Source: Leptolyngbya sp. BC1307 (GTDB lineage: Bacteria; Cyanobacteriota; Cyanobacteriia; Phormidesmidales; Phormidesmidaceae). Taken from it: DNA of 64,000 bases. Positions 2,898 to 5,264 of this stretch are shown in pieces. Below the pieces are notes generated by a model. That model did not search any database. It was not told the origin of the DNA and saw only the letters and a list, made by a program, of their open reading frames with translations. The stretch spans positions 1-64,000 of the forward strand of contig NZ_NRTA01000018.1 in the NCBI RefSeq assembly GCF_002286735.1. The letters are read 5' to 3'. How positions within the stretch are numbered: position 1 is the first letter of the stretch; each line of letters starts with the position of its first letter. A program made the translations under genes and the position numbers.

Positions 2898-3018
2898 CAG
2901 ACAGCTCTCCATCAGGCAGAATTTGAAACTCAAGTTCTGCGTTGTCTCCAGCGTAGCATCTGAGTATGCAAGCGCAAATCCTCATTACAATGTAAGCGTC
3001 GCAACTGGGAAAAGGCTC

Positions 3019-3267
3019 ATGGACACCGCATTTGAATGGACACCAGAACCTGTTCTGTTAGAAAAGGTAATTGCCTTGGCGAATCAACGCGGACAGTCGC
3101 CAGAAGCCATTGTTGATCAAGCTGTTGCTGTTTATGTACAGACCCAATCACATAGCCGACCAGAACTCAGCCGAGGACAAGAGCTAATCAACCTTATGCG
3201 TGGTAAAGCAACTGCTAAACTGACCACCGATGAAATTATGTATCTGACTAGAGGCGACGATGACTGA
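3019..3267 (+). CDS. VapB-type antitoxin, 82 aa
   Basis: Predicted antitoxin of the VapC-like toxin encoded immediately downstream. The N-terminal half (about 1-45) is a helical DNA-binding-size domain (EPVLLEKVIALANQRG, SPEAIVDQAVAVYVQ), compatible with a ribbon-helix-helix-like fold. The C-terminal part, GQELINLMRGKATAKLTTDE followed by IMYLTRGDD, is the typical toxin-wrapping tail of cyanobacterial VapB proteins. The ATG at 3019 is preferred to the in-frame start at 2923, since the extra 32 residues look non-coding. The last 8 bases overlap the toxin gene, a translational-coupling arrangement common for antitoxin-toxin pairs. Such operons are usually repressed by the antitoxin or the complex; no operator was identified here. 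Confidence 0.78.
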   Translation: MDTAFEWTPEPVLLEKVIALANQRGQSPEAIVDQAVAVYVQTQSHSRPELSRGQELINLMRGKATAKLTTDEIMYLTRGDDD

Positions 3268-3664
3268 CGTTTTGGTCGATAGCAACGTCATCCTCGATAT
3301 TGCTACTGAAGACCCTCAGTGGTTCGAGTGGTCATCTGTACAGATTTCTACATGTGCAGATCAGGGCAATCTCATCATCAACCCCATCATTTATGCCGAG
3401 GTTTCAGTAGGGTTTGAACAGATTGAAGCATTGGATACTCTGCTGCCACCAAAGTTTTTTCATCGAGAACAACTACCCTGGAGCGCTGCATTTCTCGCAG
3501 GTAAAGCTTTCCAGAGCTATAGACGGCGTGGCGGAACTCGTCGCTCTCCTCTGCCAGATTTTTACATTGGGGCTCACGCTGTCATTCTCAAAATTCCACT
3601 GCTTACGAGAGACGTGAAACGCTATCAGACTGAGTTTCCCAACTTACAACTTATCTCTCCTTGA
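3260..3664 (+). CDS. vapC: PIN-domain ribonuclease toxin, VapC family
   Basis: PIN-domain toxin that is expected to cut RNA (typically tRNA or rRNA loops in this family) when freed from its antitoxin. The four acidic residues of the PIN active site can be read: D7 in LVDSNV, E47 in IIYAEV, D100 in LPDFYIGAHA and D118 in LLTRDVKRY. The length of 134 aa is normal. The start codon lies inside the end of the antitoxin frame, so the pair forms one translationally coupled unit. All catalytic positions are intact, so I infer an active toxin. The target cannot be inferred from sequence. Confidence 0.88.
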   Translation: MTDVLVDSNVILDIATEDPQWFEWSSVQISTCADQGNLIINPIIYAEVSVGFEQIEALDTLLPPKFFHREQLPWSAAFLAGKAFQSYRRRGGTRRSPLPDFYIGAHAVILKIPLLTRDVKRYQTEFPNLQLISP

Positions 3665-3905
3665 GAGTATCGAGCACAGCGCAGGAGATTGCCAAAAAGT
3701 TCGTGATGGCGAATGCGCTGAACCCAGAAATCGCAGGGATGCAGTTTGATACAAGTGGCTAATGGCTGAGAGGTAGTCATACCGAGAGGTCGTCAAACAA
3801 TCAATACTGGTACCAGGTAACGGATCTTTGTAAGCCCTTGTTTCTCGTTCGTTCAAGCTTGAAAACAAAACTTTAGAAACTTCTGAAGCGCCTATGCTCT
3901 ACACT
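3665..3905. other. intergenic stretch with possible decayed 3' coding end
   Basis: Between the toxin gene and the convergent TIR-GUN4 gene. On the plus strand a frame ending in TAA at about 3763 reads like a protein C-terminus (AQEIAKKFVMANALNPEIAG, then MQFDTSG), but it has no start of its own and I do not recognise it. It may be a remnant of a deleted gene. The minus-strand open frame at 3644-3868 is low-quality and I do not support it. Confidence 0.3.
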
Positions 3906-5264
3906 TTACAAGTCTCGATACGAGAAAAGATACTCACTCCCCCAACTATCAAAAATCCCAAACGAATCTCCATCCCCCCGGTAAACCCAGGGGAGGTGTC
4001 CCGTAGGTGCTGACGTGCCAAATGTTACATCAGTGTAGCTAATCCAGCTTCCGTTCACACGCCATCCCACCCGATCCCCAAACGCTTGGAATATCTTCTC
4101 ACCTGGATACTTGCAGTCGAGCTTTGCCCCACACTCGACGTAAATTTTCTTTTGCACGCTAAATCCAAACCGACCCTGGCTGTATTTCACCCATAGGCGG
4201 TCAATCGCGAGCAGGTCTTTGCAAGGAAAGTTCAGCAGCTCATCTGAAGTGAAATAATCGTCAGGCTTCTTCCCGACAGCCCGAATCATCACCTCATAGG
4301 TTTCCTGAGCGGCAGCTTTGTAGTCTCCTGCCTCTAGCAGGTCTCGCAGCTTCATATGGTCAATGCCGCACTCCGAGCCTGACACTTCTAGCTTGTACTC
4401 AGCCGCCGCTGCCGCTTCACTTGCTGTCTCCAGAATAGGCCGCTCAATTTCTGCCACTTCAGAGTCGCTCAATTGCAGCTCTTGCCTAAACAGATTCAGA
4501 TCCCCCTGTGTCTTTTCATCCAGCGGATAGCAGCCCGTCTCTATTAATCGACTCAGCGCACTTCGATAAGCTTCTCGGGCCTGCTCTATGGGCGCAAGCT
4601 CCTCCGATAAAATTCGCTGTGCCTCCGCCTCTGGCAGCTTCAACTGCTTACGCAAAAGCTCCAACCGCGCCTCGTGAAAAACCGTTAGCTGCCGGTCAAC
4701 CAGATACTCTTGCACCCGTTTCCGATACTGATCTTGTGTATTGCTCGCGGCTACTGTGACAGGCACCGCAGAAACAGTCTGCACAGGTGCCGACTCAGCC
4801 TGTTGTGAAAAGCTGTTCGCTGCCTTTTGGATACCCTCGGCAATGTTACAAAACGCATCATCCCAAGTCGGCCAGGTGCCTACATCCATAACGGGCGTAC
4901 CGTTTTTGGGTAAAGCCTGAAGCTTCCCAAAAGGCGTCACATGCCAAAGGCATTTTCGTAGAATGACGGGTATCACCCGAGCCTCGCCCGCCTCATGGCG
5001 TTCCATCGCTCGCCTGATCTCAGTTTCCCGACAGTAGTGCGAAGCAATAAAATCTGAACTCACTAGCAGCAAAATAATCTGCGCCGAGTTCAGGTTGCCT
5101 TTGATCTGCTTATCCCACTCATCTCCTGGTAAAATTCTACGATCATGCCAGTCTGCGATCACATCATTCCACTTCAAAATTTCGAGATGCTTTGCCAGCT
5201 CGTCCCGTAGCGTTTCATCTTTATGCGAGTAGGAGAAAAATACAGTAACGGCGTCGCTAGACAT
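3906..5264 (-). CDS. TIR-GUN4 fusion protein, 452 aa
   Basis: Two recognised domains in one chain. Residues about 5-150 are a bacterial TIR domain: VFFSYSHKDE at the start, RRILPGDEWDKQI, IILLLVSSDFIASHYC, and the catalytic-position Glu E82 in CRETEIRRAM, followed by HEAGEARVIPVILR. TIR domains of this type hydrolyse or rearrange NAD. Residues about 185-285 are a charged helical linker domain (REAYRSALSRLIETGCYPLD; QLSDSEVAEIERPIL). Residues about 300-452 are a GUN4 domain: LRDLLEAGDYKAAAQETYEV, DLLAIDRLWVKYSQGRFGFS and FGDRVGWRVNGSWISYTDVT. Free-standing Gun4 binds porphyrins and stimulates Mg-chelatase. The fused protein is not the housekeeping Gun4; a sensor-effector role is inference. It is flanked by toxin-antitoxin genes and a repeat. 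No transmembrane segment or signal peptide is seen, so it is cytosolic. Confidence 0.9.
   Translation of the reverse strand: MSSDAVTVFFSYSHKDETLRDELAKHLEILKWNDVIADWHDRRILPGDEWDKQIKGNLNSAQIILLLVSSDFIASHYCRETEIRRAMERHEAGEARVIPVILRKCLWHVTPFGKLQALPKNGTPVMDVGTWPTWDDAFCNIAEGIQKAANSFSQQAESAPVQTVSAVPVTVAASNTQDQYRKRVQEYLVDRQLTVFHEARLELLRKQLKLPEAEAQRILSEELAPIEQAREAYRSALSRLIETGCYPLDEKTQGDLNLFRQELQLSDSEVAEIERPILETASEAAAAAEYKLEVSGSECGIDHMKLRDLLEAGDYKAAAQETYEVMIRAVGKKPDDYFTSDELLNFPCKDLLAIDRLWVKYSQGRFGFSVQKKIYVECGAKLDCKYPGEKIFQAFGDRVGWRVNGSWISYTDVTFGTSAPTGHLPWVYRGDGDSFGIFDSWGSEYLFSYRDL

Follow-up and report, generated by a model that had tools for sequence, protein, structure and literature searches.

The 3′ tails of GUN4 fusion genes in cyanobacteria suggest, on the evidence of their sequences, an unrecognised bacterial route for diversifying the sensing end of immune-like proteins. 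Between a conserved GUN4 core and a conserved DNA element these genes almost certainly carry a hypervariable tract, one example of which lies in the 64,000-nucleotide stretch of Leptolyngbya sp. BC1307 DNA analysed here (the window, Table 1). The whole reading, a programmed diversification of an immune-type sensor loop by a route other than that of the DGRs, has in our view an even chance of being right; its hypervariability is read directly from the genes, and its agent and its immune function would follow from the context described below. An earlier note on the gene had reported neither the tract, nor the element, nor the transposase remnant listed in Table 1.

Table 1. Features of the window around the TIR-GUN4 gene.
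Feature	Position	Strand	Remarks
TIR-helical-GUN4 gene	3906..5264	-	452 aa, ATG start
TIR domain	4800..5264	-	aa 1-155; Glu82 at catalytic position; Pfam, PADLOC, structure match
Helical middle	4380..4751	-	aa 172-295; AF2 helices; own profile 'MID' matches relatives
GUN4 core	3990..4379	-	aa 296-425, GHLP at its end; Pfam, structure match
Hypervariable tract	3930..3989	-	60 nt, 78% G+T, aa 426-445; replaces LxNxLR loop; pLDDT <50
Conserved 120-bp element, CTTTTCTCG...TACCTGGTAC	3810..3929	-	Intact in the window
Stops within the element	3906-3908; 3899-3901; 3892-3894		TAA of the gene; other two frames
C-terminal remnant of RAYT-type Y1 transposase, AQEIAKKFVMANALNPEIAGMQFDTSG then stop	3679..3762	+	Convergent, as at intact loci
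PIN (VapC-like) gene	3260..3664	+	Pfam; occupies the place expected for the rest of the transposase
Small ORF preceding the PIN gene	2923..3267	+	Possible antitoxin

The earlier note had described the window protein as a complete N-terminal TIR domain of an immune-type class, with a Glu at its catalytic position, joined to a C-terminal GUN4 domain, and this description was borne out. Profile searches, whose failure it had named as a possible refutation, recovered both domains with Pfam: TIR_2 at residues 7 to 107 (E 2.7e-17) and GUN4 at residues 296 to 426 (E 1.6e-35, 122.8 bits), the latter match spanning only positions 2 to 125 of the 141 of the profile. The PADLOC ThsB model PDLC00420 matched residues 6 to 175 with 206 bits. 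The structure prediction that the note had called for, an AlphaFold2 model built on a 40-row alignment, had a mean pLDDT of 87, with the TIR domain, the helical middle and the GUN4 core confident and residues 426 to 452 below 50. Comparison with VIA-align gave Z 16.1 (rmsd 1.9 over 133) for the TIR part against 7xoz and Z 16.6 (rmsd 2.0 over 133) for the GUN4 part against 1z3x. Glu82 is conserved, for alignment A3 has 26 rows extending this far and 25 of them have Glu there. The fusion of TIR and GUN4 in one protein is genuine. The helical unit between them had no Pfam match above the cut-off; it recurs between TIR and GUN4 and also in other TIR proteins. Since a second PADLOC model, PDLC04062 (PD-T4-6), overlies the GUN4 region (positions 295-427), GUN4 fusions may be called PD-T4-6 by annotation tools.

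Toxin-antitoxin neighbours, as in a defence island, had also been claimed for this gene. The PIN protein was recognised by Pfam (29.9 bits, above the cut-off; 26 bits with NCBIfam VapC, below the cut-off of 80), and the domain profile scan gave no significant family match for the small ORF before it. The case for a defence island is weak, consisting of this single PIN gene pair together with Uma2 and DUF6887 genes (Pfam). Other nearby ORFs look ordinary: a thioesterase and a GGDEF protein by Pfam and, presumably, judging from their translations, ribosomal protein L27 and a PstS-like protein. Among the neighbourhood proteins scanned, we recognised neither a partner system for the TIR-GUN4 gene nor ThsA.

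Neither the TIR-GUN4 fusion nor the idea of its gating by tetrapyrroles is new. Cyanobacterial GUN4 joined to kinases, caspases, trypsin and TIR was described by Kaur 2020 (PMC7159879), who already proposed tetrapyrrole sensing by GUN4 fusions; TIR, kinase, caspase and trypsin fusions are listed there and in PMC8195603, and kinase-GUN4 in PMC1262709 and PMC2176072. The survey of GUN4 architectures that had been proposed for the window gene returned TIR partners, the TIR profile matching 22 of 95 GUN4 ORFs in a sample drawn partly with the window TIR; among ten scanned fused GUN4 proteins the partner was a kinase in four, NACHT in four and a caspase in one, and one had none. The same type of GUN4 domain thus stands on TIR, kinase, NACHT and caspase proteins. 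No match to the domain was found in the phage collection, and carriage by phages was rejected; 37 plasmid records contained GUN4 matches. One plasmid, of Cylindrospermopsis curvispora (L286, 12603-36962), holds four annotated GUN4 genes, a kinase, psbA and two RAYT-type transposases, of which one is intact and the other partial. On three Tolypothrix plasmids (L320-L322), a GUN4 gene lacking the element has MoxR ATPase and vWA genes as neighbours, an arrangement known from ternary conflict systems in the literature.

The fused domains differ from true GUN4 in the bilin loop. According to PMC10156173, one clade of GUN4 paralogues lacks the bilin motif LxNxLR, and the Asn of this loop is required for bilin binding in Chlamydomonas GUN4, where its substitution abolished the binding of bilin and left that of porphyrin; the porphyrin-contact residues of GUN4 were studied in PMC8967248. 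LxNxLR was present in all 31 orthologues, a set formed by the best single-domain GUN4 match in each of 31 genomes and thus favouring sequences near the Pfam profile, and in none of 59 fused domains; the counts for its Asn were the same (31/31 versus 0/59). The core is common to both groups, eight orthologue-constant columns being identical in 59/59 fused domains, and the hypervariable tract sits exactly at the position of the former loop. These data bear on the proposal that the TIR enzyme is controlled through a porphyrin or a bilin bound by GUN4. The retained fold and the published proposal (PMC7159879) favour it, and porphyrin binding may persist, because the Asn substitution in Chlamydomonas GUN4 did not remove it (PMC10156173). 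However, motif and Asn have disappeared from every fused domain, and unrelated sequence fills the loop position in gene after gene. The idea that a tetrapyrrole gates the TIR is weakened by this loss, and we consider such control improbable.

Most fused genes diverge totally directly after GHLP or GEFP. Their proteins end in LLSRRDL, LFSRIETCKL, SLASRLVNCSR or similar sequences, each just before the stop, and these ends are one conserved DNA sequence in three reading frames; the DNA element itself was therefore used as the search query. From 286 loci, 173 distinct element-like matches (at most 4 mismatches) were obtained, 124 of them with an in-frame anchor, resulting in 123 unique tracts. These are 25 to 201 nt long (median 59), and their lengths leave 0, 1 and 2 modulo 3 in 43, 35 and 45 cases. 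The overall composition, about 39% G, 33% T, 17% A and 12% C, is nearly equal at codon positions 1, 2 and 3 (G.39/.38/.39, T.32/.32/.34, A.18/.17/.16, C.11/.13/.11), unlike the 90 nt preceding the tract, which have an ordinary codon structure. This equality points to a process acting on nucleotides and not to an amino-acid preference. Over their first 30 nt the tracts had a mean identity of.30, equal to the.30 that composition predicts (7021 pairs); the corresponding identity in true GUN4 was.77 (325 pairs). Only 4 of the 123 tracts have a stop in frame, whereas 63 and 70 have one when read in the alternative frames, and shuffled tracts contained a stop in 71.1 cases on average (300 shuffles, range 58-88). 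The scarcity of in-frame stops argues that the product of the tract is made and matters, and we have very little doubt, as far as such counts can tell, that selection keeps its frame open.

The mode of change was apparent from genes with similar surroundings. Thirteen pairs of a first set reached 85% identity or more in both flanks; ten of these carried unrelated tracts, one was a tandem duplicate and two were related, both belonging to the L112/L114/L115 group, in which the element is degenerate. In the enlarged set, whose stricter element pattern excluded that group, 39 of 40 such pairs had unrelated tracts (z at most 2.5), and the remaining one was the same tandem duplicate within one locus. 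Only 22 tracts, which fall into four groups of 14, 3, 3 and 2, contribute to the 40 pairs, so the pairs are not independent; as identical tracts had been merged before counting, frozen pairs are under-counted. In the pair L280/L110, the flanks are 98% and 91% identical and the tracts measure 103 and 61 nt. The change between such tracts appears, from these alignments, as wholesale replacement and not as drift. Some tracts look frozen: L112, L114 and L115 have nearly the same one across three genomes, with a degenerate element, and L184 and L187 have one in common, with an element that is apparently intact. In L214 (11390-11460) and L196, the left flank recurs once more inside the tract.

The tract ends at the CT-rich start of the element, CTTCTCTCG, and the element itself includes the tetranucleotides GTAA and GTAG. 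Among 123 rows, the first stop fell at element position 22 in 108, at 29 in 109 and at 36 in 93 for the respective frames, and the element was entered in the three frames 43, 45 and 35 times. The phylum was represented by 386 genomes; 66 of them contained a 24-mer of the element (at most 2 mismatches), and the backward pattern gave one match. A GUN4 domain lies just upstream of 158 of the 173 element-like matches, a proportion that is not a free estimate because the loci were partly chosen by GUN4; both element copies of the window genome terminate GUN4 fusion genes. A REP-like hairpin received weak support, with 58.0% of cells paired versus 56.0 +/- 0.9 after shuffling. RNAalifold gave no consensus structure for 36 sequences and Rfam no match in window positions 3600-4100, and a reading of the element as an RNA structure was rejected. 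At L205, L219 and L208-L211, element copies recur about 485-580 bp apart, each apparently behind a GUN4 unit, so that one locus may hold several variable loops.

Variation at the 3′ end of a gene raises the question of a DGR, in which the 3′ end of GUN4 would be rewritten by a reverse transcriptase from an adenine-rich template, as happens with cyanobacterial C-type lectin domains. Such elements diversify the 3′ ends of conflict-system genes in cyanobacteria (PMC7517822, PMC10907252), and a 32-nt stretch beside a reverse transcriptase gene (L159:2860-2891) is similar to a section of the element (81%, E 0.005-0.007). However, tract length and frame vary, unlike those of DGR variable repeats, and the window genome, which is 99.99% complete, contains a single copy of the tract. 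Two genomes that carry the element, G170 and G324, gave no RVT_1 match. The sole RVT_1 match of the window genome (G000) is a 254-aa frame, which we take to be a fragment of a group II intron. When 91 loci were searched with BLAST against 30 reverse transcriptase loci, six weak DNA matches resulted (E 4e-4 to 0.007), five to L159 and one to L147, which hold neither a GUN4 domain nor a full element; no template for reverse transcription of the tracts was found in this comparison or in the window genome. Adenine-specific substitution at constant length, as in DGRs, does not fit lengths of 25 to 201 nt and unrelated tracts between near-identical flanks. The DGR explanation was thus rejected as far as it could be tested, on the variable length and frame, the missing template repeat and the missing DGR reverse transcriptase in G000, G170 and G324, and we hold it to be very improbable.

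We give equally little credence to a second templated route, gene conversion, by which the tracts would be copied from silent genomic donors or from foreign DNA. The recurrence of element copies at some loci and the GUN4 matches on plasmids would suit it. Against it, the two element copies of the window genome both end GUN4 fusion genes, its tract is unique there, with no donor cassette for it found in that genome, and the tracts resemble random G/T-rich DNA lacking codon structure. Ku was absent from 17 of 17 genomes, and Ku-dependent end joining was rejected.

A transposase gene accompanies many of the elements. On clustering the neighbours of 82 loci, a few of which overlap, a RAYT-type family appeared at 21 and the next most frequent family at 7. 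It matches Pfam Y1_Tnp with 62.8 bits, and H60, H62 and Y122 are invariant in 16 sequences; the nearest NCBIfam model is that of the REP-associated tyrosine transposase (NF047646; 69.5 and 66.9 bits, below the cut-off of 80), and no PDB sequence matched. Counted from the GUN4 side, there were 40 distinct RAYT fragments close to an element; 39 of these are convergent, and 31 of the 39 start 90-240 nt from the element start, one broken gene being able to yield two fragments. Counted from the transposase side, a profile search at E 1e-40 found matches in 41 of 386 genomes. Those above 440 bits numbered 19 in 15 genomes; all 19 adjoin a convergent GUN4 domain and 15 have a recognisable element, three of the 19 sharing one plasmid-sized contig and one of these three overlapping L286. 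Among the lower-scoring matches that were fetched, 3 of 15 adjoin GUN4. Downstream of the transposase stop, the element was found in most of 17 loci, L217 being a misfit and L088 retaining the far end only; upstream, 15 aligned loci had no conserved sequence, and a two-ended transposon was rejected.

In the window, the remnant that adjoins the end of the PIN gene matched the C-terminus of an intact RAYT best (70% over 27 aa, E 7.5e-15 when 16 RAYTs formed the database). The intact RAYT of this genome stands behind its second fused GUN4 gene, a NACHT-GUN4 gene with a 61-nt tract. As the window copy is a remnant, the transposase would have to act in trans on the window gene, which is possible, or else the tract is now frozen.

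These observations led us to propose, tentatively, a prokaryotic counterpart of junctional diversity, in which a domesticated RAYT, a single-strand transposase, would open a fixed site in genes for immune receptors, untemplated G/T-rich sequence would be added ahead of a three-frame stop element, the GUN4 bilin loop would become a variable loop in receptors with TIR, kinase, NACHT or caspase domains and the transposase would gain a host function. TIR enzyme, helical connector and GUN4 scaffold would form an immune-type receptor, the former bilin loop being turned into a hypervariable loop comparable to one that binds antigen. The RAYT, or a host enzyme at its nick, would open single-stranded DNA where the element begins, in CT-rich sequence immediately 3′ of the tract. 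This site is modelled on E. coli TnpAREP, which cuts a single strand at CT next to a GTAG hairpin, leaving a 3′-OH (PMC8266576). Nucleotides would then be lost, others, preferentially G and T, added to one strand with no template, and the ends rejoined; the addition and its preference for one strand are suggested by the G/T bias and the randomness of the tracts. DNA made of G and T only can spell no stop codon in any frame, hence many products would stay open, and the three-frame stop element would make products of every frame usable. Binding of a foreign or altered molecule to the new loop may cause the TIR domains to assemble and switch on NAD cleavage or signalling. We lean towards an immune receptor role of the fused GUN4 proteins as the simplest one, given their kinase, NACHT, caspase and TIR partners and the literature connecting such proteins with conflict systems; that the RAYT is the diversifying agent we put at slightly short of even.

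The same observations could be explained with no immune purpose: RAYT and element would be a selfish or domesticated mobile unit at the GUN4 3′ end, the tract would be debris of nicking and repair, and selection would only keep the frame open. The RAYT fragments and remnants at many loci, including the window, speak for this, as do the frozen tracts and the duplicated pieces seen at two loci, namely a tandem 51-bp duplication of the element (L207:3988-4090) and a second tract and element 70 bp past the first (L206:3808-3900), each also a possible trace of a diversifying process. Mere debris is difficult to reconcile with the strength of open-frame selection, with a stop for every frame at a set position, with a range of partners that takes in kinase, NACHT, caspase and TIR domains, and with the lack of a conserved far end upstream of the RAYT, so that the unit is not a two-ended transposon. 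We therefore consider the unprogrammed explanation unlikely, although a serious one, and diversification to be probably programmed rather than passive.

Several facts weigh on the other side of the programmed reading. No change of tract was observed within one strain or clone; the only strain set fetched, the three Tolypothrix plasmids, has the same GUN4 gene and no element and is uninformative on turnover. Some tracts are old, being kept across the three genomes of L112, L114 and L115 and between L184 and L187. A RAYT above 440 bits was found in 12 of the 66 element-bearing genomes (six candidates scored per genome), and that of the window is a remnant. Ku is absent, a candidate untemplated polymerase was not among the findings, and the hairpin is weakly supported. 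Finally, 10 of 115 element matches and, in the larger set, 15 of 173 have no GUN4 call upstream.

Targeted diversification of proteins in bacteria is known mainly from DGRs, shufflons, phase variation and gene conversion. If the proposal is true, a diversification of immune-type receptors free of template, length and frame would be a new principle, with a logic near that of antibody CDR3 formation; it would give RAYT-type transposases a host function and the loss of the bilin motif from cyanobacterial GUN4 paralogues a reason, both of which would become directly testable in culturable cyanobacteria. In the open-access PMC literature, as far as its texts were accessible to the search, we found no paper linking GUN4 to a tract or a transposase of this kind.

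Compared with known systems, the GUN4 tracts share with the DGRs of multicellular bacteria (PMC7517822, PMC10907252) the hypervariable 3′ end, the TIR, kinase, NACHT and caspase-like partners of proposed antigen sensors, and a conserved DNA element flanking the variable region. They differ from them in having no template repeat or dedicated reverse transcriptase that we could find, in their variable length and frame, in a G/T-rich sequence lacking codon structure, in the GUN4 fold in place of a C-type lectin, and in the adjoining RAYT-type transposase. This transposase, as in RAYT/TnpAREP systems and REPtrons (PMC6006769, PMC8266576), is a Y1 HUH enzyme, and the element has GTAA/GTAG and CT-rich sequence as there; unlike theirs, its occurrence is bound to GUN4 genes and we did not see it as a scattered repeat, the better NCBIfam score (69.5) stays below 80, and the descriptions of RAYTs in these two papers that we consulted contain no diversification role. 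With the GUN4 paralogues (PMC10156173) and conflict-system fusions (PMC7159879, PMC8195603), the proteins have the domain and the loss of LxNxLR in common; the hypervariable tract, the three-frame element and the RAYT go beyond what these accounts, in the parts bearing on GUN4, describe.

The TIR fold and the Glu at the catalytic position are those of TIR effectors such as Cat1, SPARTA, ThsB and plant and animal TIRs, the activity here being predicted, and the ThsB-like TIR resembles that of Thoeris (PDLC00420); unlike these effectors, the window protein has as its sensor a GUN4 scaffold with a variable tail, and no partner system was recognised adjoining it. In vertebrate antigen receptors, N-region (junctional) diversity consists of random additions of variable length between conserved flanks, under selection for frame. 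We know of no terminal transferase for the GUN4 tract system. The tracts depart from N regions in their one-strand G/T bias, in the three-frame stop element at their end and in a RAYT in place of RAG; they resemble them in being random, variable in length, placed between conserved flanks and selected for frame.
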